Source: a virus
Strand: one strand, 5' to 3'
DNA length: 20,050 nucleotides
Virus record (IMG/VR): IMGVR_UViG_3300030107_003264
Location: 1 to 20,050 of that record
Made by a program: the position numbers and the translations under genes. Of this stretch, positions 1,170 through 13,270 are shown piece after piece (position 1 is the stretch's first letter; every line of letters begins with the position of its first letter). A model generated the notes under the pieces. That model did not search any database, was not told the origin of the DNA, and was given only the letters and a program-made list of their open reading frames with translations.

Positions 1170-3509
1170 TTATGAAGCGTCGTTATCAACTAGTAGATCT
1201 ACATAACAGTGTAATGTCACGTCGTTTGATACTTTAAGAATATCTAAATACCCTGATATAGTTGCTACTTCCTTGTTGTTAGCAGGGTCACCACTACTTG
1301 TTGTCATTACGGCTTGAGCATGTAGTAATTGGACACCTTCAACAGTATTGTAAGTGTTCGTAGACACAGCGTCCGGGTGCTCTTCAAGAGTTACTTTATC
1401 TCCATCAAGAAAAGTTACATCGGTCGTTAGGTTTGCACGTTTTGACGAAACATTCATACTACTTACATCCACGTATGTTTTACCGTTTTTAAATATCTTT
1501 TGCGTTCCATCTGCATTTCTAGCCCTTATAACCATACCAGCTCTACCGTGCATTAACGTAGGCTTTACGCATTGTACTTGTGGTATATTATTGCAATCAC
1601 CGCTGATGGTGCATGTTATTGGTCTTCTTTTAAGACCGCCTATAGCAAATTGTGGGAAATAACTATTACCTGTTTGTATTGATAGATTTCTATAACTACC
1701 ACCACTACCACCAGCGCTACACGCTAAAGAAAATGGAAAGATTCTAGATGATTTCAATTCAAATCGAATCTCAGTGTTTGCTGCTATAGTACCAGATATC
1801 GCGTTGCTTAGCACTATTATATTATCTTTGATACTCTTTATAGTCGTTAAATGTGGTATACCACTACCAGCGGCGTTAGAGTTACCAAGCATAGGACACA
1901 TGACATACATACCCTCCGTCAACCTTTGGTTAGACTTTTGACGCTTTAGAACTATTCTATTAGTATCTGTTGCCGCTGACTGTAACTCTGCTTCTACAGA
2001 AATATGGTCAATCGCGGGGTTAAAGCTGTTGTATGGGGTTTTAGGTTTTCTTTTAAACGAAGCTGATACTCCAGAAATATCCCAACGCGAAGGAGTGTCA
2101 ACGACAGGGGTAATGGTTACAGTGTATACCCCATCACTTATAATAGGGCGAGGATCCAATAATGTTGGTACACCATCTCTAATAACGGTGTCTCCCACGG
2201 GATTTACGTAAACCACGTACCTATCATCTGTAGTTGTTTTGGGTAGCAAAACACTGTGAACTTGTTTTTCCGCGCTAGGCATCGTATGCGTGTATTTTTG
2301 AGGTTTGTAGTTCACCATACCTCCCGTGCTCCTAAAATCCCACCAAGAATAACCCGTGTCCGGTCTATTTGTTCTTTCTTTATCCGCGCCAGTAGTCTTG
2401 TATAAGTATATCTCATATGTCGCGCCCTCAGTCCCTCTAACTGTAATATCTTGCCAGCTTGCAGATGTACCAAGACCATCAGGTAATTGCATGCTTTTTA
2501 TAACTGTACCTGAATCTATTTCTTCTTCAACCACCGTGGGTTCAAAAGTCTTCACTTTCCAATCTATCGTATGCCCAAATTGACACATACCATTTGCTTC
2601 GTGGTCAATAGCCCATTGAGAATCTAAAGGGTTTATATTTATATCAAGATACAAGCTATAGACACCGGAGAAATCCCAGCCGTTAGTCTCCCCAAACAAA
2701 CCTCCAGTAGGTATGTACATCTCATTATAAGCCGGGTTATCTAATATCAGACTTGTCCAAAGCCCACCCCACGCGAGAAAAAAGTGAGTATGCTCTGTAA
2801 AATCTGGATCACCCGCACCAGGCAATGGGTCTATAAAATTAGTAAAATCTAAGTTTGTTCTTCTTAAAAGAATCCTCGTGATAGAGTAAGTAGAGTTTTC
2901 TTCGTAATTACTTATAGTGCCACTAAACTTATACTTAGAGTAACCATCTGTTTCTTGAGTCTCAGCGTTAACTAGTGTCCTTGTTATACCACCGCTAGTA
3001 CTAGATTGAGCAATCCAAGTACTTAAATTGTTGCTAGGATCGTAGAACTCATGCGTAAAAGCTTGAGGATCGTCAGCTGCTACATAAGGAACGTTAACAT
3101 AAAAACAAACACTTCTTGGAGGATTTGTAGATACTAAGTTATCAGGTTTCTCATCAATGTCAATGTAGTATGTTGTATCCACCGTTGGCGTTGCTGATCC
3201 AAAAGTAGCCGTGAACTTAACAGTATTATTAATATCACCGGCTGTTCCTTCGTCTTCAAATTGAACCTTTGTTATGGGGATATCCATGTTACCGTTTTCC
3301 CATATGTTACTACCAGTTAAAGCACTACCGCTGCCGTCAGTTTCTGTAGCTCCACCAATCTTAAAATTCGAGGCTTGCAAATATGCGCCACTATGAATAC
3401 CACTACTTGGATTTACAGGTGTTATAATACCATATATATCCGCGTTATTAATATCCGCACCAACTGTTGAAGAGTGCGTGTCATTTACTACTGTATACCA
3501 AAGTGCCAT
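1170..3509 (-). CDS. Large beta-rich tail protein
   Basis: 779 residues. It is Thr/Ser/Asn/Gly-rich, with short alternating strands typical of phage tail or fibre proteins, and has no membrane segment. The N-terminus (about 1-75) contains a YLQASNFKIGGA block, a pattern I associate with beta-sandwich domains of marine phage tail proteins. Residues ~515-582 form another module: LTEGMYVM, then TTIKSIKDNIIVLS, then GTIAANTEIRF. A Gly/Ser loop (SAGGSGG) follows near residue 592, and a Cys-containing segment (CTISGDCNN) follows further on. It comes nine bases after the giant nozzle-type gene, in the same frame, suggesting a distal tail or host-contact role. I see no enzymatic motif such as a lyase or peptidase. 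The exact role is not recognisable. Confidence 0.75.
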   Translation of the reverse strand: MALWYTVVNDTHSSTVGADINNADIYGIITPVNPSSGIHSGAYLQASNFKIGGATETDGSGSALTGSNIWENGNMDIPITKVQFEDEGTAGDINNTVKFTATFGSATPTVDTTYYIDIDEKPDNLVSTNPPRSVCFYVNVPYVAADDPQAFTHEFYDPSNNLSTWIAQSSTSGGITRTLVNAETQETDGYSKYKFSGTISNYEENSTYSITRILLRRTNLDFTNFIDPLPGAGDPDFTEHTHFFLAWGGLWTSLILDNPAYNEMYIPTGGLFGETNGWDFSGVYSLYLDININPLDSQWAIDHEANGMCQFGHTIDWKVKTFEPTVVEEEIDSGTVIKSMQLPDGLGTSASWQDITVRGTEGATYEIYLYKTTGADKERTNRPDTGYSWWDFRSTGGMVNYKPQKYTHTMPSAEKQVHSVLLPKTTTDDRYVVYVNPVGDTVIRDGVPTLLDPRPIISDGVYTVTITPVVDTPSRWDISGVSASFKRKPKTPYNSFNPAIDHISVEAELQSAATDTNRIVLKRQKSNQRLTEGMYVMCPMLGNSNAAGSGIPHLTTIKSIKDNIIVLSNAISGTIAANTEIRFELKSSRIFPFSLACSAGGSGGSYRNLSIQTGNSYFPQFAIGGLKRRPITCTISGDCNNIPQVQCVKPTLMHGRAGMVIRARNADGTQKIFKNGKTYVDVSSMNVSSKRANLTTDVTFLDGDKVTLEEHPDAVSTNTYNTVEGVQLLHAQAVMTTSSGDPANNKEVATISGYLDILKVSNDVTLHCYVDLLVDNDAS

Positions 3510-3518
3510 ATTTTATAT

Positions 3519-6500
3519 TTAATCTGCTGTAACATCCCAAACTCCATCAGCACCACCATCTGTGTTGCCGTCTATTTCCGTGTCAGGATTATACGTTGTT
3601 GACGTGTTGTTTTCTAGTGATATTGTTATTGGAGCCGTTAGAGTAGGATCATCGTGTGTTAAGGTGGCTATACCTAAACCTTGAACTGAAAACTCCTTCT
3701 CATCAAGATTACTTAATGTCGTAGAATCACCCGTAGGATAAGCAAACCATTTTCCTTCTTTGTCTTTAAACTCTAGAATTCCACAAGACTGTAGGTTTGT
3801 AACAATGCTGCTTGTGTACCAACCGGGAATAGTGTCGCCTAAATTATGATACTCACCGTCTGTCACGTTGTCAATTGAGGTGGTTCCAATAGATGCGCCA
3901 GTACCAGTTGTTAAATCATTGTTGTAAAATCCGACGCCGTCAACCCCAACCGTGCTGTCATCCCAATTAGTTATCTTTGCTTGAGATCCCTCGTAGTTTA
4001 TTGTGTTGAAACTTTTAACTGCCTCAGGCGTGTCATTGAATATTGCGGTTATGTCCGACGTGTATTGCACACCATAGAAATTATTTCTAGGTTGTGATTC
4101 TATATGATGTTGCCATATGTGGCCATCTAAAAAAGTATAGTATTTATTATTTAAACTCAAACCACCCTCTAGACCTTGTATTTCACTTGGTTCTGTTTGA
4201 TATGTTTTGTAGAACGTCTTAAAACTTGTCCAACCTTTACTGTTCTCGCTATAAGATGCGGTAACTTGATCGTGGTATAATTTTTGGTTAGAATTATATT
4301 TTTTACCTATAGAGATATTATACTCATTTTTTCTTTCGTCCCAAGTCCCTATAACTTTATCAATATAAGAGTTAGTTGTATCAGCGAAATAATCCTTCAT
4401 TCCAAGATCTGATATAGGCCTAACACCTTCACCAGATAAAGCCAGAACTTTACCTCTATTAATATCAGCAAAATACATGCTATAAGGCGTTGCTACTAGC
4501 GACTCTGGATTCGTAGATATTCCGTAATCTCCTTGATATGCGTTCGCCGCACCGACAACCTTATTGCTAGCTACAACTTGCGAGTTGCCATCCGCATTGA
4601 ATAATACATCTCTATTGGTCTCTGCTCTAAGCACTTTGTCTTCGCAGAACATTATCAACCTAGTGTCTCTTGCTTTTAAAGCTTGTATACTTCCATGCGT
4701 AGGGTTTATATCTTTTGTTATCGCCTCGGCCGCTATAAATTGATTCGTGTCGTTAACACCGGAATTAGAATTATATACTCCCGACCAAATAACACCGTAT
4801 TTTTTATGTTCTTCTGTTACCCTTCTATTACCTAGAGTAGCTGATGCTTTAACTCCATTGTCAACTTGAGGCGCATTAAAATCGTCTCTAATTCTATCTG
4901 ATTCTACGCCATTAGCAAAGCTCCAGCAGTTTTTCCACCCAAGTTTGTGAGTTTGAGAAAATAATTTATACTCTGCGTTTTCAGTTGTTATATCTCCTTC
5001 AAAACTTAACGTATCGTAACCACCCACGGCGTCAGCCGCTAAAACAAGCGTCGACGTACTACCATCAGGTAGAGTAAATTCCACGGGAGTTCCTTGAGTC
5101 ATTGAAACAAGTTCTTCAGTACCACCATATTGAGCTTGACCCGATATCATTTGAGGTGTACCTGATAATGTACCCGTAATCCCTCCGATTTCACCGTTAA
5201 GATATGTAAATGTTTGATTAAATCTTATAGTATTTCCGTCAGTATGATATGCGACGGTGTGTGTTTTTTCTCCCTGTATAACACCGGTGCTACCAGGACC
5301 AAGTATAGGATTGTGGTATCCATATGTTTTAAAAGTAGATCCTACGGGTATATACTCTTCTATAGTTTTCTTATTTAATTTTAGCGGTATTAATCTACTC
5401 GCTTGGTAGTATATATCTAACTCAACAGATTCCCTAGGCTCTGTCTCCCATATGGCTGGGTTTTCAGTATAAAAAGTTTCTTGAGTAGCAAAAGGTGTTA
5501 CAATCTCTATAACATCACCAGCTCCCATACCATCGTGCTGTAGAGCTCTTCTCCAGTTTGTGTCTGTTACGCTATCTATAGTGTCTGGATCAGTTCCATG
5601 AATTGGGTTATAACCGTGTTCTGTGTCACCAATTTTTGGTTTTACAAGTATGGTCCATCTTTGTCTTCTATTATACTGAGCATACAGCGCTCTATTTGGA
5701 CCGGGATTTACCTCACCTTGATTCCATTCTTCTGCGCCAGCGTCGTGGTTCATCCAGTAGTGACTCGACCCACCTATAGTGCAGTTTCTTATACCCCAAG
5801 CCCCGTCATATATAGTAGTTCCAGCCTTGTATATACTGCTATTGTCATATCCCTGGTCAGTGTACGGCTGCATGTAAGGGTAAACTGTATACACTTGTTT
5901 ATCTGGATCTCGCTTAAATCTAAACTTAGTACCAGGTGTAACTAGTTCTCTTATAAACTCCCAAGCAGACGAACCAATTAAATCTTGTACATTTGCAAGA
6001 GTGTGCGGAAGCGCCCCAGAGTCCTCGGCAACACCCCATGAATCACCACTTGGATCATTCCAAGAGCTCCATGATAAATCTATAGCAGATCCATCCCACC
6101 CAGGTGGATTCCATATACCTCTACTAGGTGTTCCTCCACTTGTATTAGAATGCCACCACTGGAAGTCTCCACCGCCTCCACTTGGTATAAACTCATTAGT
6201 TGTAATGCCAGATGGCGAGCCTGTGTATGGAAAAGAGCAATCAAACCCATCAGGCGCGGTATTACTATAGTAATTCCCAGGGTTCATGTTACTAGCGCCG
6301 TAATCATCTGAGTATGCCTCCAAACACAAATCGTTTGCGTAGTAGTTAGCCGATGGTCCACCTGGCCAGAAACTCGTTGGTCCTTTGGCTGTAAAAGGTG
6401 GATATGGAGAACCGTCAATGTAGGTGTTGCCGATTAAGAGGGCGTTATCTCCAACTAAACTGTGTCCCAACCAGTTTCCTCTTGGTACCATTTCCGTCAT

Positions 6501-9500
6501 GTAACCCGCGCCACTTGCTATAGGTAACGTACCGCCATTGTCAGTATAATCTTCAAAGCTACCATCCCCCTGCTCATAAGTCGATGTCAAGCTAAGGTAA
6601 CCACCAGAGTTTGGCGTTACATTTAATGTAGTAAACCTATTACCAGGTAGATCCCTTTTGCTACCAGCAAGTTGGTATGCCGTAGCGCCGTCTATAAAAA
6701 ATCTATCCTTAGAATTAACTTTGACCCAAAACTTTCTTGCAGGTATGCCCCAGTTGACATGGGCAACGCAGTTGTTGAGTTGATCCGAGCCTTCATAACT
6801 GTTACCAGCTTCACCGGATTGGTCATCAAAACCACCTAAAATACCCGAGCCTGGGACTCCATCCAACGCTCTGTATCTTTGTATCTCATTTTCTGTGGCG
6901 CCATTAATAGCTCTAATAGAGCATATGCTCATATTAGATGTTGTCTCACCCCAATAGTCAGAATCTGTATCGTTGTTAAACCATAGGTATTGCGCCCCTT
7001 CGCTATAGTCGTTAGCGTCATAACCAGATAAATTACTCCAATCATACTCGGTTGGATGGCATATTCCATGTGGATAGTTAGAGGAAGTATAATGCCTTTC
7101 CCATTGATTAGCCACCTCCATATTCTGGCCATTTGTATTATGCTGCCAGCTTTGGTCCGATGGCATTGCGTATACAGCGTTGTTTGGTATAGTACCACTA
7201 ATGCCAGGAGGAGTGCCTAATAAACTCGAGTCTGCTCCAGCAGCTAATCTAGTACCAGCGTTTACATATCCGTTATTGTTAATGTATCCGATAGGCCAGG
7301 CCATATTCGTAAACCACGCCTCAGGTAAAGCTTCGGTAACATATTGATCTAAAACGTCATCTTTAAATATCTTAACAAAAAATCTACCATCAAATTCAGG
7401 ATGATTTTCTATTCTCTCTTCTGTAAGTTCTAACGTGATACCATCTATTGCCCCGTTAAAAGTTCCGTCAGTAGACGTGAACGACATGTCTTCACCAAAA
7501 CTTCTGGTTACAGTTATTTTTACTTTGTCCTCATTCTCGCCGCTAGCTACTTTTGAAACTCTGTAATGTTGTGAGCTGTATTCACCACCTGATGTTATTC
7601 TAATAAAAAGTCTTTCTGGTGGATCTATGTGCATTTGATCTCCAAAAGCTGTCTGAAAAGCCTCTTTATCAATCATCACAAACCTAGTTTCAGGAAGAGG
7701 GTATCCTAAACCACCCGCTCCTATTGGAAGCGACTGGTCTCCGTCAGCATAGTTCAGCATCGATCCTAAGCTAACTCTTCTAGTTTTTATGAAATCGGGA
7801 GCTTCATTCTCAATAGCTATAACTCTATACTTAGCTTTTTCATGTACAATACCTTCTGTACCATGTGCTTTTTTGAGGACTAAGAAATCCTCCTCCATAA
7901 CTTTGTTTCTTTCTGATGACGGGAATGAAAGCCATATGTTTCCATCTGAAGCATTATACCAACGATCCATCGACATAGTATAGTACTCCACAGAGGTCTC
8001 CTTTACATAGAAAGAATAATATTCTGCCCACGATGGAATATCTGAAGACATCGACTCATCAAGTTGAACTTTAATGCAATTTGCCTTATCTGAATTAAGT
8101 TTAAGACATCTAATAGAGGAGTCTTTTGTAGTTAACACAGGCGTCTCTCTTCCATACTTATCACTAAAAACAATACCTACTTGATAGTCACGCATAGTCT
8201 TTACTGATGGTTTAGGATAACCTTTCACTGTTCCAGAAGAAATCGATAGATTAAGCTTAGGAGCAAATCTAACATCGTAGCCTTGCACGTAGTTACCGTA
8301 TATAATTCTATTTGCTGAAACCTCTTGAGCTAAAGCCTTTTTAGGTACATTATCCCACGGCCTTAATAGTTGATTTGAAGGCACGATAGAGTGTATCATG
8401 TCCGTGTCTAGCTCAAACTCACCTCGTTGATTATTAGCTCCATCATCTGTATCAGGCCATAAAGGTTGTGGATCTTTAGGTGTAATTGTTTTGACCGTAT
8501 AAACTGTTGGTTTACCAGCTTCTTTATATAGTATGTCTATAGCAACCACGTCTTGCGGTATAGTGTCTCTATGCGGATGATAACCTTTAATTCTTAGCCC
8601 TCTAAGCATGTTTTTCATACCTAGATTGTGACCTTTTTTTGGCTGATAATCAAAGTAATCTGGTAAGAATGCTATCTCTGACCAAGGAGCGAATGTGGAA
8701 TACTCACCATCTGAATACTTCCATCTATAAGAAAATCTAGGAAACTTAAAGTTGAACAAAGTGTCTTTGTCTTCAAGAACCACTTTCCATTGATCATTAG
8801 CTGTAGTTACGCTTTCTTTTATAGCTAAAATTTCTAAATCAAAAGGTCCAACTGCGAGGTTGCCTGGGTATGTCGCGGGACCAGAAACAACTTCAACTCT
8901 CACGTCACGAGTGTTTTCATCTGACGCAGAGTCAAGTGATGCTCCATCTAGATTTTCAAATAATAATACATCTCCTTCTCTGTAATCAACCGGTTGGTCA
9001 AAATTAACACCAGTAACAGTATAACCTACTGGGAATGGGCCTGTAGTATCCCCAACGTTTCCAGCAAATAAAATCGGGTCGTTTATATTAGTCGCTGTTG
9101 TTTGCGTTAGATTCTCCTCGCCAGTCGTAGGATTTACCCTACTAACAGACGTTCTGTACATATCGAGATCTAGAGTTGTGTTTGGAGATTTTTTAATCAC
9201 CGTTATATTACTCTCTTCTACGTATACAGCCTCATTAGTATCAGGGTGCATAACCACTATATAGTTTACCACGTTGCTCGTGGGGTCGTCGATAACTAAT
9301 CTAGTATGGAAGTATCCAGTATCTCCATTAAATGGTATTGTAGTTGCGTTGTTATTAGCGCCGTTTAAACCTCCATTGCCACCTCCTATTAGATACTCAG
9401 TACCACCAGTACCAGCTATAGATCTAGGTATATTAATCTTTTTTGGCTCAGTCTCATTATCTGTCCAAAATAAGAAATCGTCAACTATATTTATACCTGT

Positions 9501-10187
9501 TATAATATTGTTTCTCTCAAAACCTAATACGCTGTCAGCTGTAAACCATACTACAGAATCATCACTAACATCAATTGTAATGTCAGTATCTACGGTTACT
9601 TTCCACTTAGATTCAGTTGTGTCATATGCAATGTCTGTGACAGTAATGTTATTAGTAGATAAAGGATAAGTATCACTAGACATTTTCATCCCAACTCTTA
9701 TACCCGTTTGGTTTGTTGTAACACCAGCACCTAAAGTAATATAAAAACTATTGGTCGTGGTAATATCAGCAGAGACAGTTGCGTTAACCCTAAATATATC
9801 TACAAAAACGTACGTCTGATACTCTCTTATAACGTCGTACTCTATAATATAATTAGCGCCTTTTGCAAGTGAAGCACCAGTGGTAGGGTTTATATCAGAA
9901 TTAACAAAATAGTAGATTTTATCTTTATCTGGAGCAGCTATCGAACCAACACACACTCCTCCTGAAAGATCAGTAATACCCCCACTATTTGCTTGTGTGA
10001 CATCAGTGCCGAGTATATTATTTATTTTTATATTACCACGTAACGTCTGTACGACGCCAGAATTAGACCCCTCTGATGTTGTCACCTCTATATTTGTAGC
10101 ATCTCTATAATCACCTTCTTGAACTAATCTCTCGTCGAGATCTTTATTCATTCGGCCATTACTAAACGTATGTTTTAACTCCGGCAT
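3519..10187 (-). CDS. Giant nozzle/tail-stabilization-type protein
   Basis: 2222 residues, by far the largest gene here. The N-terminus (about residues 5-52) carries the pattern GRMNKDLDERL, then YRDATNIEV, then GVVQTLRGN. This resembles the opening of T7 gp12 / P22 gp10 nozzle proteins and crAss-like stabilization proteins, which close the tail channel. Propeller-blade-like segments occur near 230-250 (DDFLFWTDNETEPKKINI) and near 1885-1932 (GDYGISTNPES, MYFADINRGKVLAL). Residues ~480-570 (FPRFSYRWKYSDGEYS) and ~1575-1605 (NPAIWETEP, DIYYQAS) match blocks I recall from marine phage structural proteins. Residues ~960-1395 are an unusual Gly/Asn/Ser/Trp-rich stretch. P22 gp10 and T7 gp12 are about 470 and 790 residues, so this is much longer. 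It starts three bases after the connector gene and in the same frame. I see no internal stop or frameshift. Assignment is by pattern and position. Confidence 0.8.
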   Translation of the reverse strand: MPELKHTFSNGRMNKDLDERLVQEGDYRDATNIEVTTSEGSNSGVVQTLRGNIKINNILGTDVTQANSGGITDLSGGVCVGSIAAPDKDKIYYFVNSDINPTTGASLAKGANYIIEYDVIREYQTYVFVDIFRVNATVSADITTTNSFYITLGAGVTTNQTGIRVGMKMSSDTYPLSTNNITVTDIAYDTTESKWKVTVDTDITIDVSDDSVVWFTADSVLGFERNNIITGINIVDDFLFWTDNETEPKKINIPRSIAGTGGTEYLIGGGNGGLNGANNNATTIPFNGDTGYFHTRLVIDDPTSNVVNYIVVMHPDTNEAVYVEESNITVIKKSPNTTLDLDMYRTSVSRVNPTTGEENLTQTTATNINDPILFAGNVGDTTGPFPVGYTVTGVNFDQPVDYREGDVLLFENLDGASLDSASDENTRDVRVEVVSGPATYPGNLAVGPFDLEILAIKESVTTANDQWKVVLEDKDTLFNFKFPRFSYRWKYSDGEYSTFAPWSEIAFLPDYFDYQPKKGHNLGMKNMLRGLRIKGYHPHRDTIPQDVVAIDILYKEAGKPTVYTVKTITPKDPQPLWPDTDDGANNQRGEFELDTDMIHSIVPSNQLLRPWDNVPKKALAQEVSANRIIYGNYVQGYDVRFAPKLNLSISSGTVKGYPKPSVKTMRDYQVGIVFSDKYGRETPVLTTKDSSIRCLKLNSDKANCIKVQLDESMSSDIPSWAEYYSFYVKETSVEYYTMSMDRWYNASDGNIWLSFPSSERNKVMEEDFLVLKKAHGTEGIVHEKAKYRVIAIENEAPDFIKTRRVSLGSMLNYADGDQSLPIGAGGLGYPLPETRFVMIDKEAFQTAFGDQMHIDPPERLFIRITSGGEYSSQHYRVSKVASGENEDKVKITVTRSFGEDMSFTSTDGTFNGAIDGITLELTEERIENHPEFDGRFFVKIFKDDVLDQYVTEALPEAWFTNMAWPIGYINNNGYVNAGTRLAAGADSSLLGTPPGISGTIPNNAVYAMPSDQSWQHNTNGQNMEVANQWERHYTSSNYPHGICHPTEYDWSNLSGYDANDYSEGAQYLWFNNDTDSDYWGETTSNMSICSIRAINGATENEIQRYRALDGVPGSGILGGFDDQSGEAGNSYEGSDQLNNCVAHVNWGIPARKFWVKVNSKDRFFIDGATAYQLAGSKRDLPGNRFTTLNVTPNSGGYLSLTSTYEQGDGSFEDYTDNGGTLPIASGAGYMTEMVPRGNWLGHSLVGDNALLIGNTYIDGSPYPPFTAKGPTSFWPGGPSANYYANDLCLEAYSDDYGASNMNPGNYYSNTAPDGFDCSFPYTGSPSGITTNEFIPSGGGGDFQWWHSNTSGGTPSRGIWNPPGWDGSAIDLSWSSWNDPSGDSWGVAEDSGALPHTLANVQDLIGSSAWEFIRELVTPGTKFRFKRDPDKQVYTVYPYMQPYTDQGYDNSSIYKAGTTIYDGAWGIRNCTIGGSSHYWMNHDAGAEEWNQGEVNPGPNRALYAQYNRRQRWTILVKPKIGDTEHGYNPIHGTDPDTIDSVTDTNWRRALQHDGMGAGDVIEIVTPFATQETFYTENPAIWETEPRESVELDIYYQASRLIPLKLNKKTIEEYIPVGSTFKTYGYHNPILGPGSTGVIQGEKTHTVAYHTDGNTIRFNQTFTYLNGEIGGITGTLSGTPQMISGQAQYGGTEELVSMTQGTPVEFTLPDGSTSTLVLAADAVGGYDTLSFEGDITTENAEYKLFSQTHKLGWKNCWSFANGVESDRIRDDFNAPQVDNGVKASATLGNRRVTEEHKKYGVIWSGVYNSNSGVNDTNQFIAAEAITKDINPTHGSIQALKARDTRLIMFCEDKVLRAETNRDVLFNADGNSQVVASNKVVGAANAYQGDYGISTNPESLVATPYSMYFADINRGKVLALSGEGVRPISDLGMKDYFADTTNSYIDKVIGTWDERKNEYNISIGKKYNSNQKLYHDQVTASYSENSKGWTSFKTFYKTYQTEPSEIQGLEGGLSLNNKYYTFLDGHIWQHHIESQPRNNFYGVQYTSDITAIFNDTPEAVKSFNTINYEGSQAKITNWDDSTVGVDGVGFYNNDLTTGTGASIGTTSIDNVTDGEYHNLGDTIPGWYTSSIVTNLQSCGILEFKDKEGKWFAYPTGDSTTLSNLDEKEFSVQGLGIATLTHDDPTLTAPITISLENNTSTTYNPDTEIDGNTDGGADGVWDVTAD
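6000..7305 (-). other. Gly/Asn/Ser/Trp-rich central region of the giant tail protein
   Basis: This segment encodes roughly residues 960-1395 of the 2222-residue tail protein. It is dense in Gly, Asn, Ser, Asp, Tyr and Trp, with Trp pairs and Trp/Pro/Gly clusters (QWWHSNTSGG, WNPPGWDG, WSSWNDPSGDSW) and scattered Cys. Charged residues are sparse compared with the flanks. Such composition is common in loop-rich, exposed or carbohydrate-facing domains, so a surface-displayed insertion in the nozzle is possible. I do not recognise a family. The boundaries are approximate and based on composition. Confidence 0.5.
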
Positions 10188-10190
10188 GCC

Positions 10191-11123
10191 TTAGTGTTTA
10201 ATTATTTTAGATTGACCTCTTAGTATTTGAGTTAACTCTTCTATCTTGAGATTAGATAATCGTAGTTTTGCTTTTCTAGTTTCTGCAAACCTCTCTTTCT
10301 TAATAGTTTGTAATACTCCTGCTGGAGCATCTTTCCTTGCAGATAATACACCGTATAATATATGCTTGTATATTGCTTCTTCAGCAAGTTTAGGAACGTA
10401 AGACGAGCTCAAGCTTATACTTGATGAACTTCCAGAGATACCATCGCTTATGTATTTCAACACCACTGTCTTACCACTAACGTTAGAACTAAAGTGGAAC
10501 TTACCTTGAGTTTCATCAATAAAAAATGTACCGTTAGCTTGTGCGTGCTCTGGATCTAATCCGTATCTCCCGCCAATTAACTCACCATACGAGTCGTCGA
10601 TTTCATCAGCGTTAGTATCGCCAATATCGGTTGATGATTGTGATTTAAAGTTTTCAGAACTCGTTGACCCATAGTTACCATCTACGGCTGCTGTTCTACT
10701 AAAACCATTATATGTTGTAAATCCAGTAGTAAAACCACCCCATGTTTCAACAGATTCATTTACGTCGAACGGATTACCTGACTTACTTGTAGGATATAAT
10801 CGTCTAAATGTTCCGTTGCCATCCACCCATTGTAAACTAACGTAATTAACGTAGTCTACTGGCATAACTAAAACTAATGTAGACGGTATTTCTACCTCTA
10901 TATCTCTCGTGCACTTTAATGTGTCGTAACTAAGCTCCTGTAAACTACGAATAGCATGGAACGTAATATCAGCCAATAAAACGCCTTCACATAACTTACC
11001 TTCTCCAACATACGTAGCGGCGAATGAGTCAATAATATCTTGTAAAGATATTTGCCTATAGTTACCAAAGTCAGTGGTAGTATTATCGTAATACTCAGAA
11101 GGAAGTTGTTTTAATATACCCAT
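10191..11123 (-). CDS. Neck/ring connector protein, crAss-like type
   Basis: 310 residues. The N-terminal helical half (about 20-101) reads NYRQISLQDIIDSF, FHAIRSLQELSYDTLK, then MPVDYVNYVSLQWVDG. The C-terminal helices (about 245-310) include YVPKLAEEAIYKHILYG, RFAETRKAKLRLSNLK and a basic end (RGQSKIIKH). I recall this two-part pattern from head-to-tail connector proteins of marine and crAss-like phages, sometimes labelled P22 gp4-like. The middle (about 120-235) is Ser/Thr/Gly-rich and probably variable or loop-forming. Such proteins stack as a ring between portal and nozzle. Its place between another connector candidate and the nozzle-type gene supports this. It begins three bases after the previous stop in the same frame, with no Shine-Dalgarno sequence. 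Exact ring number is unknown. Confidence 0.75.
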   Translation of the reverse strand: MGILKQLPSEYYDNTTTDFGNYRQISLQDIIDSFAATYVGEGKLCEGVLLADITFHAIRSLQELSYDTLKCTRDIEVEIPSTLVLVMPVDYVNYVSLQWVDGNGTFRRLYPTSKSGNPFDVNESVETWGGFTTGFTTYNGFSRTAAVDGNYGSTSSENFKSQSSTDIGDTNADEIDDSYGELIGGRYGLDPEHAQANGTFFIDETQGKFHFSSNVSGKTVVLKYISDGISGSSSSISLSSSYVPKLAEEAIYKHILYGVLSARKDAPAGVLQTIKKERFAETRKAKLRLSNLKIEELTQILRGQSKIIKH

Positions 11124-11126
11124 TGA

Positions 11127-11876
11127 TTATTGATTTTGAAGTTGTTGCTCACCTTGGTTGTACTGAGCAATAGTTGTTGTAAGTGCTGTTTTATTCATAA
11201 CAATTCCAGCTAGCTCCAAGATCTTATAGACAAGAGTATCTTCTTCTGATACGTGTAGCTCAAAGTCTGTGCTGGCATAAGAGTTATATAGAGCTTTGCT
11301 ATTTACAACGACATACGCCCAGTTTACGTCCAAAGGAACTCTAAAGCATTCTACAGTTATGTCTGTTGTTTCTTCAGCTGTATGATCAGAATCAGTACCG
11401 CCAGCATATACAACTATGTCTCTACCGGTTATCCTGTTGTTTGTATAAAAAGGGGCTTGATTATCTACAGTTGCCATGTGCCTAAGTGATTTCCTTAATC
11501 TTTGAGCATCGTGCATAGATACTTTTTGACAAGGTTCATCACCTAGTAGTATAACACCTGTTTGAAATACATCACGATTAGAGTCTCCTACAAGAACTGT
11601 CTCAGGGAATGTATGCCCATTAACTACAGGTAGAAACTCAGAAAACGGAGCTAATTTTCTATCCAATAACTCACTTATATTTGTTTCATCTATCTCGTTA
11701 GATTTGTTAGCGTCAGCTACTTCTCTAGCATTTTTATGATAAAAGTAACTCTCAAATATTGACATTTGAGCTTGGTTAGCAAGCAAGTTAAACTCCTGCG
11801 GTGTTATATAACCTCGCTGCTCTTTGTTAGCTAAAGCTAATACTCTTTGATATACTGTGTCTACACTTACTGCCAT
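11127..11876 (-). CDS. Head-tail adaptor/ring-type protein
   Basis: 249 residues. The N-terminus is helical (VYQRVLALANKEQRGYITPQ, then EFNLLANQAQMSIFESYFY, residues ~8-44) and the C-terminus has another helix pair (STDFELHVSEEDTLVYKILE, then LAGIVMN, about 203-229) with a Gln-rich tail. The centre (about 80-200) is mostly beta. I recall this arrangement from adaptor-like virion proteins of marine podoviruses and crAss-like phages, which sit on the portal ring. Its place upstream of the connector and nozzle-type genes fits. The start follows a ten-base AT-rich gap after the previous stop. No enzymatic motif is visible. Role is inferred from pattern and gene order. Confidence 0.7.
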   Translation of the reverse strand: MAVSVDTVYQRVLALANKEQRGYITPQEFNLLANQAQMSIFESYFYHKNAREVADANKSNEIDETNISELLDRKLAPFSEFLPVVNGHTFPETVLVGDSNRDVFQTGVILLGDEPCQKVSMHDAQRLRKSLRHMATVDNQAPFYTNNRITGRDIVVYAGGTDSDHTAEETTDITVECFRVPLDVNWAYVVVNSKALYNSYASTDFELHVSEEDTLVYKILELAGIVMNKTALTTTIAQYNQGEQQLQNQ

Positions 11877-11886
11877 GGTTTTAGTT

Positions 11887-12363
11887 TTATATGCTTGCTA
11901 CGAAAATTTCTAAATCTACGGTGGCTGCATCAGCTCTAGCGTGTATATTAACTAGATCGCCTAAGTTATCCATAGAGGCACCACTCGCTTCCCTAGCGTC
12001 AAAAGTGTTTACAACACCACCCTCTAGATTTGAATTATAAATAAAAGATTGGCCATGATCGACTAGTACAATAAACGTATCATTATCCTCGTTTTTAAAT
12101 GTTAGAACAACCCAATTAGTATCATCTCTATTTGTTATTCTAATATATCTAACATTACCTTCAATGAATTGCCCAGCTCCAGCAGTTGTATCCATTTTAA
12201 TTATCTCCGTGTGAGAAGTGTGAGGTATTGATACTATTCTTTTTGATATCTCGTTTATACCAGATATCGAAAACGTGTTTGTTGAACTGTAGTCTTCTCC
12301 TTTGAGAATAATTGATTCCTTCAAAGAAACCGTTAGTGTTGATGCGGTTACTGTACTTGCCAT
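11887..12363 (-). CDS. Small beta-rich virion protein, possible capsid accessory
   Basis: 158 residues. Nearly the whole protein is predicted beta strand: TLTVSLKESIIL near the N-terminus, RYIRITNRDDTNWVVLTF in the middle, and VDLEIFVASI at the end. There is no signal peptide, membrane helix or Cys. Its size, beta content and position just after capsid-region genes would suit a decoration, trimer or head-fibre protein, but no motif proves it. I recall similar short proteins in marine phage structural modules without assigned function. A C(UUCG)G hairpin lies about 20 bases upstream of the start, so its translation begins just downstream of that structure. Confidence 0.7.
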   Translation of the reverse strand: MASTVTASTLTVSLKESIILKGEDYSSTNTFSISGINEISKRIVSIPHTSHTEIIKMDTTAGAGQFIEGNVRYIRITNRDDTNWVVLTFKNEDNDTFIVLVDHGQSFIYNSNLEGGVVNTFDAREASGASMDNLGDLVNIHARADAATVDLEIFVASI

Positions 12364-12382
12364 AATTCGTTTTTATAGTTTA

Positions 12383-12406
12383 GTGACCACCCCGAAGGGT
12401 GGCCAC
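12383..12406 (-). ncRNA. C(UUCG)G intergenic hairpin
   Basis: In minus-strand RNA the arms GTGGCCACCC and GGGTGGTCAC pair over 10 bp around a UUCG loop closed by C-G, an exceptionally stable tetraloop. One pair is G-U on the minus strand but A-C on the plus strand, so the structure belongs to minus-strand RNA. It starts 16 bases after the stop of the upstream gene and ends about 20 bases before the next start. No U-run follows, so it may be a processing or mRNA-stabilizing element, or an imperfect terminator. Confidence 0.7.
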
Positions 12407-12421
12407 CCAACTAAGTGATTA

Positions 12422-13270
12422 TTAATTTAATCGTTTTTCTATATTGGAGTATATCTCCATTCCTTCATCAGTTTTAAACCAAGCGGCTAAAGCTGAGTAT
12501 GGATGTTCGTCAAAAGGAACTGTGAATAGTTTTCTGTCAGTGCTTCCCCATGAGAACGTTCTTTGATCTTGAGATAGCTTGATTATCCCCATTTCATTTG
12601 CTTTAATTCCAAAGTTTCTAAGAATAACGTTATCGTCATTTATTAACTCTAAGAACAACTTTGGATTCTTCTTAGCATATAGTAATAAATCACGCTTAAG
12701 CTCCTTAGAACTCATCTTAGATACGTTAGAACCAATCTCTACTCTCATAACAGCCTCTGCCATATCAATATCTAGATTTTTAGCTGCCATTAGAGCTTCT
12801 ACTTCAAACTCTAACCAATCAAGTTGTGTTTCAGCAACAACTTGCGGTTTGTATTCGAAATACAACATATCTTTATCTGGGTGATATAAAGAAAGTAGTT
12901 TTTGGAGTGTCTGCTTTTCGCGCGTTACGTGTAAAGCTCCATTTCTAAAAACAATGTGAGATAATCTTTGTTCACCTTTCATCTCATCTACAAACGGTGT
13001 TCTTTGATTCGCACAGTATTTCAACTCTCTTTCGTATCCTTTGTCTTCGTCGAAATAGTATATATTACTACCTCTTATTGTTCTTGATAAAGGTCTTTGC
13101 TTGTTTTTTAAGTAATAAACCTTATCTTCAATTACCCAAGAATCTTTTTTAGGTAATTCTTTTTCTACAACAGGTCTAGGTTTAGGCTCTGGTTTTGGAG
13201 CTTCTACCACTACTGTTTCTTCTACGTAGGGTTCTTCGACCTCTACTTTTTTTGTTTGCTTTTTAGCCAT
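12422..13270 (-). CDS. Conserved-looking virion-module protein of unknown function
   Basis: 282 residues. The first ~45 residues are a disordered-looking tail rich in Lys, Glu, Val and Pro (KPEPKPRPVVEKELPKK). A compact domain follows, with FDEDKGYERELKY (73-85), TPFVDEMKGEQRLSH (91-105) and TLQKLLSLYHPDKD (121-134). The C-terminal part is helical, with SSKELKRDLLLYAKKNP (187-203), then LSQDQRTFSWGS and VPFDEHPYSALAAWFKTDEG. I recall this pattern from genes directly after the capsid gene in marine phages, with no function known to me. A head-associated role is suggested only by position. The gene is bracketed by two UUCG hairpins, so it may have its own mRNA level. Confidence 0.7.
   Translation of the reverse strand: MAKKQTKKVEVEEPYVEETVVVEAPKPEPKPRPVVEKELPKKDSWVIEDKVYYLKNKQRPLSRTIRGSNIYYFDEDKGYERELKYCANQRTPFVDEMKGEQRLSHIVFRNGALHVTREKQTLQKLLSLYHPDKDMLYFEYKPQVVAETQLDWLEFEVEALMAAKNLDIDMAEAVMRVEIGSNVSKMSSKELKRDLLLYAKKNPKLFLELINDDNVILRNFGIKANEMGIIKLSQDQRTFSWGSTDRKLFTVPFDEHPYSALAAWFKTDEGMEIYSNIEKRLN

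Follow-up and report, generated by a model that had tools for sequence, protein, structure and literature searches.

The 20,050-nucleotide stretch of viral DNA analysed here (the window, part of a 31,977-base IMG/VR virus record that is itself a fragment) raises the question of how a single tail protein comes to bear propeller signatures at both of its ends, and of whether the very long chain between them interrupts one propeller or links two. The initial annotation had favoured the first arrangement for a 2222-residue nozzle-type product, with some 1600 residues inserted in one propeller. Our analysis indicates that this product is almost certainly the tail muzzle (nozzle), of the type of phicrAss001 gp44, of a podovirus related to the crassviruses and to the flavobacterial podoviruses of Cellulophaga and Flavobacterium, with one seven-bladed propeller that carries a distal insert.

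The open reading frame matches a family of virion structural proteins (PHROG_14478, E 1.5e-119), and its product scores above the curated cut-off of 27 bits with both Pfam models of the crassvirus muzzle, crAss_MUZ (40.1 bits) and crAss_MUZ_C (40.7 bits, covering residues 2033-2150). Both termini match the phicrAss001 muzzle in HHalign comparisons: residues 1824-2159 align with gp44 from position 1055 onward (E 1e-15), and residues 1-257 with gp44 1-152 (E 3e-14), the former being the only match given by whole profiles and the latter coming from a comparison of that part alone. The features that had first suggested a nozzle are all present in these homologous regions. They comprise the nozzle-like N-terminal motif (MPELKHTFSNGRMNKDLDERL...), a WTD-like blade (FLFWTDNETEPKKINIPR, residues 238-255), whose WTD motif (241-243) falls on gp44 YWVDGLNQARVINI in the N-terminal alignment, and a second blade-like segment (YFADINRGKVLALSGEG, near 1905-1921), although the C-terminal blades run on to about residue 2070, beyond the segment originally noted. 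Searches of PDB sequences with phmmer and with profiles gave nothing usable, one of them reaching the C-terminal 493 residues only; picornavirus 3C matches in these searches (E 0.18) were dismissed as chance. Judged by muzzle and capsid, most of the isolated relatives are phages of Cellulophaga and Flavobacterium, which are classed outside Crassvirales; in their muzzle proteins the N- and C-terminal blocks share about 29-32% identity with the query, over 36-40% of its length.

The genomic neighbourhood (Table 1) also favours a muzzle. Along the minus strand, the order begins with a terminase-like gene (so labelled from its position and its likeness to the phi38:1 gene order), the portal (PHROG_6547), a 398-aa acidic protein and a capsid candidate (PHROG_13704). 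It continues with genes for proteins of 282 and 158 aa, the PHROG_14543 and PHROG_13977 proteins and the muzzle, which is followed by the gene of 779 aa, then by one of 121 aa and one of 157 aa that matches tail-fibre PHROGs. This arrangement resembles those of Cellulophaga phage phi38:1 and the Flavobacterium elemo phages, and the succession of terminase, portal, capsid, ring candidate and muzzle is common to the window and phi38:1. The proteins at the muzzle position in those phages, found in the same gene order, are shorter than the one described here (1324 aa for phi38:1 gp097, 1470 aa in the elemo phages). As with gp44, the muzzle gene comes after putative ring-protein genes. With regard to the ring-gene paralogues of Crassvirales, one candidate, the 249-aa protein, matches phicrAss001 gp34 (R4/R5; HHalign probability 76, E 2e-5), and the 310-aa neighbour has no detectable similarity to crassvirus ring proteins.

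Table 1. Features of the muzzle locus in the window; residue numbers refer to the 2222-aa protein.
Feature	Coordinates	Strand	Basis
Muzzle gene, whole, 2222 aa	3519..10187	-	ATG at 10187, TAA 3519-3521
Virion structural protein, 310 aa, directly upstream of muzzle	10191..11123	-	PHROG_13977, E 4e-31
Tail-barrel ring protein candidate, 249 aa	11127..11876	-	PHROG_14543; HHalign to phicrAss001 gp34
Gene downstream of muzzle, 779 aa, candidate muzzle-associated tip subunit	1170..3509	-	blastp to fused extensions of relatives
Residues 1-45, N-terminal ring-joining segment	10053..10187	-	HHalign to gp44 (1-257); near relatives 47-84% identical
Residues 46-257, propeller blades 1-2	9417..10052	-	HHalign to gp44 up to 152; strands in L042 model
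Residues 258-604, clade-specific insert (~258-475), then IG1-like domain (~476-600)	8376..9416	-	Conserved in clade
Residues 605-640, blade 3 strands (NRIIYGNYVQGY)	8268..8375	-	61-83% identity in relatives
Residues 641-975, IG2-like and barrel strands bearing insert	7263..8267	-	Conserved block; confident part of middle model
Residues 976-1550, hypervariable insert, presumed distal face	5538..7262	-	Lowest occupancy and identity; low pLDDT
Residues 1551-1745, conserved return block (1551-1625), second variable insert (1626-1745)	4953..5537	-	Identity in relatives
Residues 1746-2070, return block with the other propeller blades	3978..4952	-	HHalign to gp44 from 1055
Residues 2071-2222, ring-joining part at the C-terminus, with tail	3522..3977	-	crAss_MUZ_C; conserved to about 2170

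The propeller itself was approached through L042, a natural short relative of 1214 aa with 36% identity to the 2222-aa protein, whose first 1199 residues were modelled with AlphaFold2 from a 51-row alignment (pLDDT 67, pTM 0.65), and the result was transferred to the longer protein by alignment. The first Foldseek matches of this model are to the phicrAss001 muzzle (E 1.8e-29), and VIA-align superposes it on gp44 chain 7qol_P over 683 residues (Z 26.9, rmsd 5.2) and on P22 gp10 over 375 of 471 residues (Z 22.8, rmsd 3.8). Within the range 32-998, and hence with both chain ends, the model also accommodates a complete lyase propeller, 2qc5, over 281 of its 298 residues (Z 18.9, rmsd 3.8), and the alignments to single complete propellers span model residues 46-998. 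Because the model matches gp44, P22 gp10 and complete single propellers, the two ends are taken to build one propeller; as shown through relatives, the N- and C-terminal parts are predicted to form a single seven-bladed propeller plus a ring-joining domain, by which the protein docks beneath the barrel of the tail. Blade motifs lying about 1600 residues apart might also point to two separate propellers, or to a protein of the fibre type whose two ends both bear propeller-like repeats. We regard such proteins as extremely improbable here, since the L042 model needs both ends for its one propeller and the profile matches of the protein are to the muzzle family, with none to fibres. The single interrupted propeller of the initial annotation is thus supported, and neither an absence of propellers nor a pair of complete ones was found.

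This architecture has a close precedent in gp44 (PDB 7qok, 7qol), which consists of a ring-joining domain and a seven-bladed propeller, both split, with IG1 between blades 2 and 3, and with IG2 and the crass domain held in blade 3 (PMC10172136). The present protein shares the ring-joining domain, the single propeller and the large inserts at two places, one behind blade 2 and one within blade 3. The chain leaves the propeller after blade 2, would then make an Ig-like domain and return for part of blade 3, and would exit again into IG2 and a long distal domain; it comes back for the remaining blades, and the identities of the middle domains are suggested by comparison with gp44. Residues from 477 match gp44 IG1 from 181 weakly (HHalign, E 0.0074), with about 190 extra residues ahead of IG1 relative to gp44; the blade-3 strand NRIIYGNYVQGY looks by eye like gp44 NTLFLGNYTLK; and IG2 gave a short HHalign match only (E 0.012). 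The last propeller region (1746-2070) corresponds to about 18 strands in the L042 model. The proposed insertion of about 1600 residues agrees well with the 1565 residues measured between the WTD blade and the propeller block at the C-terminus, with the refinement that about 36 of them (605-640) return for blade 3.

Is this size exceptional? The initial annotation had compared the protein with P22 gp10 and T7 gp12. It is longer than gp44 as well (2222 against 1371 aa), and the 1565 residues that separate blade 2 from the C-terminal blades stand against about 900 in gp44, as estimated from the HHalign alignment ends. Among its own relatives it is ordinary. An alignment-based scan found that at least 517 IMG/VR stretches encode relatives, and 96 full-length relatives span 1214-3450 aa with a median of about 2100, so that a large muzzle is normal for this group of marine phages; in 98 muzzles, blade 2 and the C-terminal blades lie 652 to 2507 residues apart (median 1282). 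The short-tail nozzles of P22 (gp10), Sf6, Pa223, GP4 and SU10 share the fold of propeller plus ring-joining domain, as seen through L042 for P22 gp10, but their matched chains have 470-910 aa, they lack a giant insert of this size, and their sequence similarity to the protein is undetectable. T7 gp12 is not among the structural matches listed, which does not speak against a shared fold. The fair yardstick is gp44 rather than P22 gp10 or T7 gp12, because both the architecture and the habit of varying in length, with insertions taken up in the crass and IG2 regions, are already published for crassviruses (PMC10172136). The largest muzzle found has 3450 aa (L039:7001-17350) and also the largest gap of the family between blades 2 and 3, 1366 residues, a site that differs from that of the main insert in the window.

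The insert inside blade 3 evolves very differently from the propeller. Identity to near relatives is 19-34% for residues 976-1400 and 11-27% for 1626-1745, against 54-75% for the C-terminal propeller. Residues 976-1400 hold 16 of the 46 tryptophans of the protein (p 0.008, for a region picked after inspection), and are also rich in Gly, Asn and Ser. An AlphaFold2 model of residues 480-1640 was weak (pTM 0.49, confident in the flanks only) and matched nothing in the PDB at an E value of 0.001 or below. Its flanks gave only weak matches to small beta-barrels (Z below 7), with a Z of 6.4 to 7qol_P; in this low-confidence model they fit the barrel described under IG2 in gp44, without proving it. 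The insert shows no sequence similarity to the crass domain of gp44 that HHalign could detect with the middle part (960-1700), and a search for tandem repeats as its source found none.

From its position and its variability, we infer that the hypervariable part touches the host. Most likely, by analogy with gp44, six copies of the muzzle would close the end of the tail as a gate, which would open when the large and fast-changing distal part senses or touches the surface of the host and moves, a mechanism like that proposed for gp44 (PMC10172136). The extra mass of the same muzzle might instead be mainly structural, lengthening or widening the muzzle or letting it reach across a capsule, with receptor binding left to other fibres. 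Insert length does range widely with no recognisable binding domain within the insert, muzzles of 1214 aa persist without the extra mass, and phicrAss001 has tail fibres separate from its muzzle (PMC10172136). We nevertheless consider this rather unlikely, given that no part of the protein changes faster than the insert, and that a Trp-rich, rapidly diverging region suits a host-driven surface better than a spacer.

The 779-aa gene starts nine bases past the muzzle stop, in frame, and blastp shows its product to be a homologue of the C-terminal extensions that 13 distinct relatives carry on the muzzle ORF itself, the best match being to the extension of L066 (9e-29), with others that include those of L065, L059, L055 and L057. 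Since many relatives have it as a domain at the C-terminus of their own muzzle, the 779-aa protein probably sits on the distal part of the muzzle, as judged from these sequence relationships. Of the 101 muzzle cores placed on a tree, 37 bear a C-terminal extension longer than 300 aa, in 38, the window included, a homologue of such extensions is encoded by a separate gene downstream, and 26 have neither or are unclear. Well-supported branches force at least nine changes of the fused label, in a quick tree where fusion was set by length, some records are cut and mutual homology of the extensions is shown for part of them only. The loci with homology between downstream gene and extension are L055, L057, L058, L059, L065, L066, L071, L072, L075, L015, L016, L024, L083 and L090. 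A few of the relatives' extensions carry Ig-like, cadherin-like or Fn3 domains.

The nine-base, in-frame spacing, together with the existence of fused relatives, could suggest that the muzzle stop is read through, so that some of the muzzle and 779-aa product is made as one chain. In-frame junctions number 13 of the 38 with separate genes, the one third expected by chance, and the window has a clean TAA stop followed by a new ATG; we accordingly rejected programmed readthrough, which appears very improbable.

The propeller itself can be divided between genes, at two positions. In L027 and L040 (both 7001-12608) and L029 (7001-12647), the muzzle is encoded by two genes cut just past the blade-3 strand, giving products of 597-605 aa (the first half ends NRLVYANYLQNYNLR stop) and 1271-1276 aa, so that one propeller would need two chains. 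In L002:10010-15577 (phi13:2), L050:12001-18018, L080:7001-13333 and L114:7001-15115 the cut falls near residue 1960-1975, inside the C-terminal part of the propeller; in phi13:2 the muzzle position is thus occupied by gp120 and gp121, with the C-terminal part in a separate gene. In all the split muzzles the first gene ends at an ordinary stop and the second has its own new start. The two muzzle halves of L050 are separated by a gene with a glycosidase annotation.

What is new is the homology of a downstream gene to fused extensions, with at least nine switches on the tree, and the cutting of a propeller into two genes at two positions; this modular fusing and splitting is what most deserves to be followed. 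Tentatively, and as a possibility rather than a probability, the muzzle of this marine group could be seen as a modular, exchangeable tip, in which a split propeller tolerates huge inserts, is repeatedly cut into two genes, and repeatedly gains or sheds a C-terminal tip module (here the separate 779-aa protein), host contact evolving as muzzle parts are fused, set free and exchanged rather than through fibres alone. The analysis supplies a name and an architecture for a gene that hundreds of viral contigs from uncultured viruses contain, and points to possible sites of host-range determinants. Testable hints on which tail-tip proteins touch come from the split propellers and from the downstream gene, which has been fused and separated repeatedly.

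Two further muzzles depart from the common pattern. In L103:7001-16084, a Hint (intein-like) domain at residues ~2887-3026, which starts CFVGDTKVLLADGS and ends VLVHNKG, closes a muzzle ORF of 3028 aa. Phage cr56_1 (L136:1974-6143) probably reassigns a stop codon, since its muzzle frame contains 24 stop codons under table 11.
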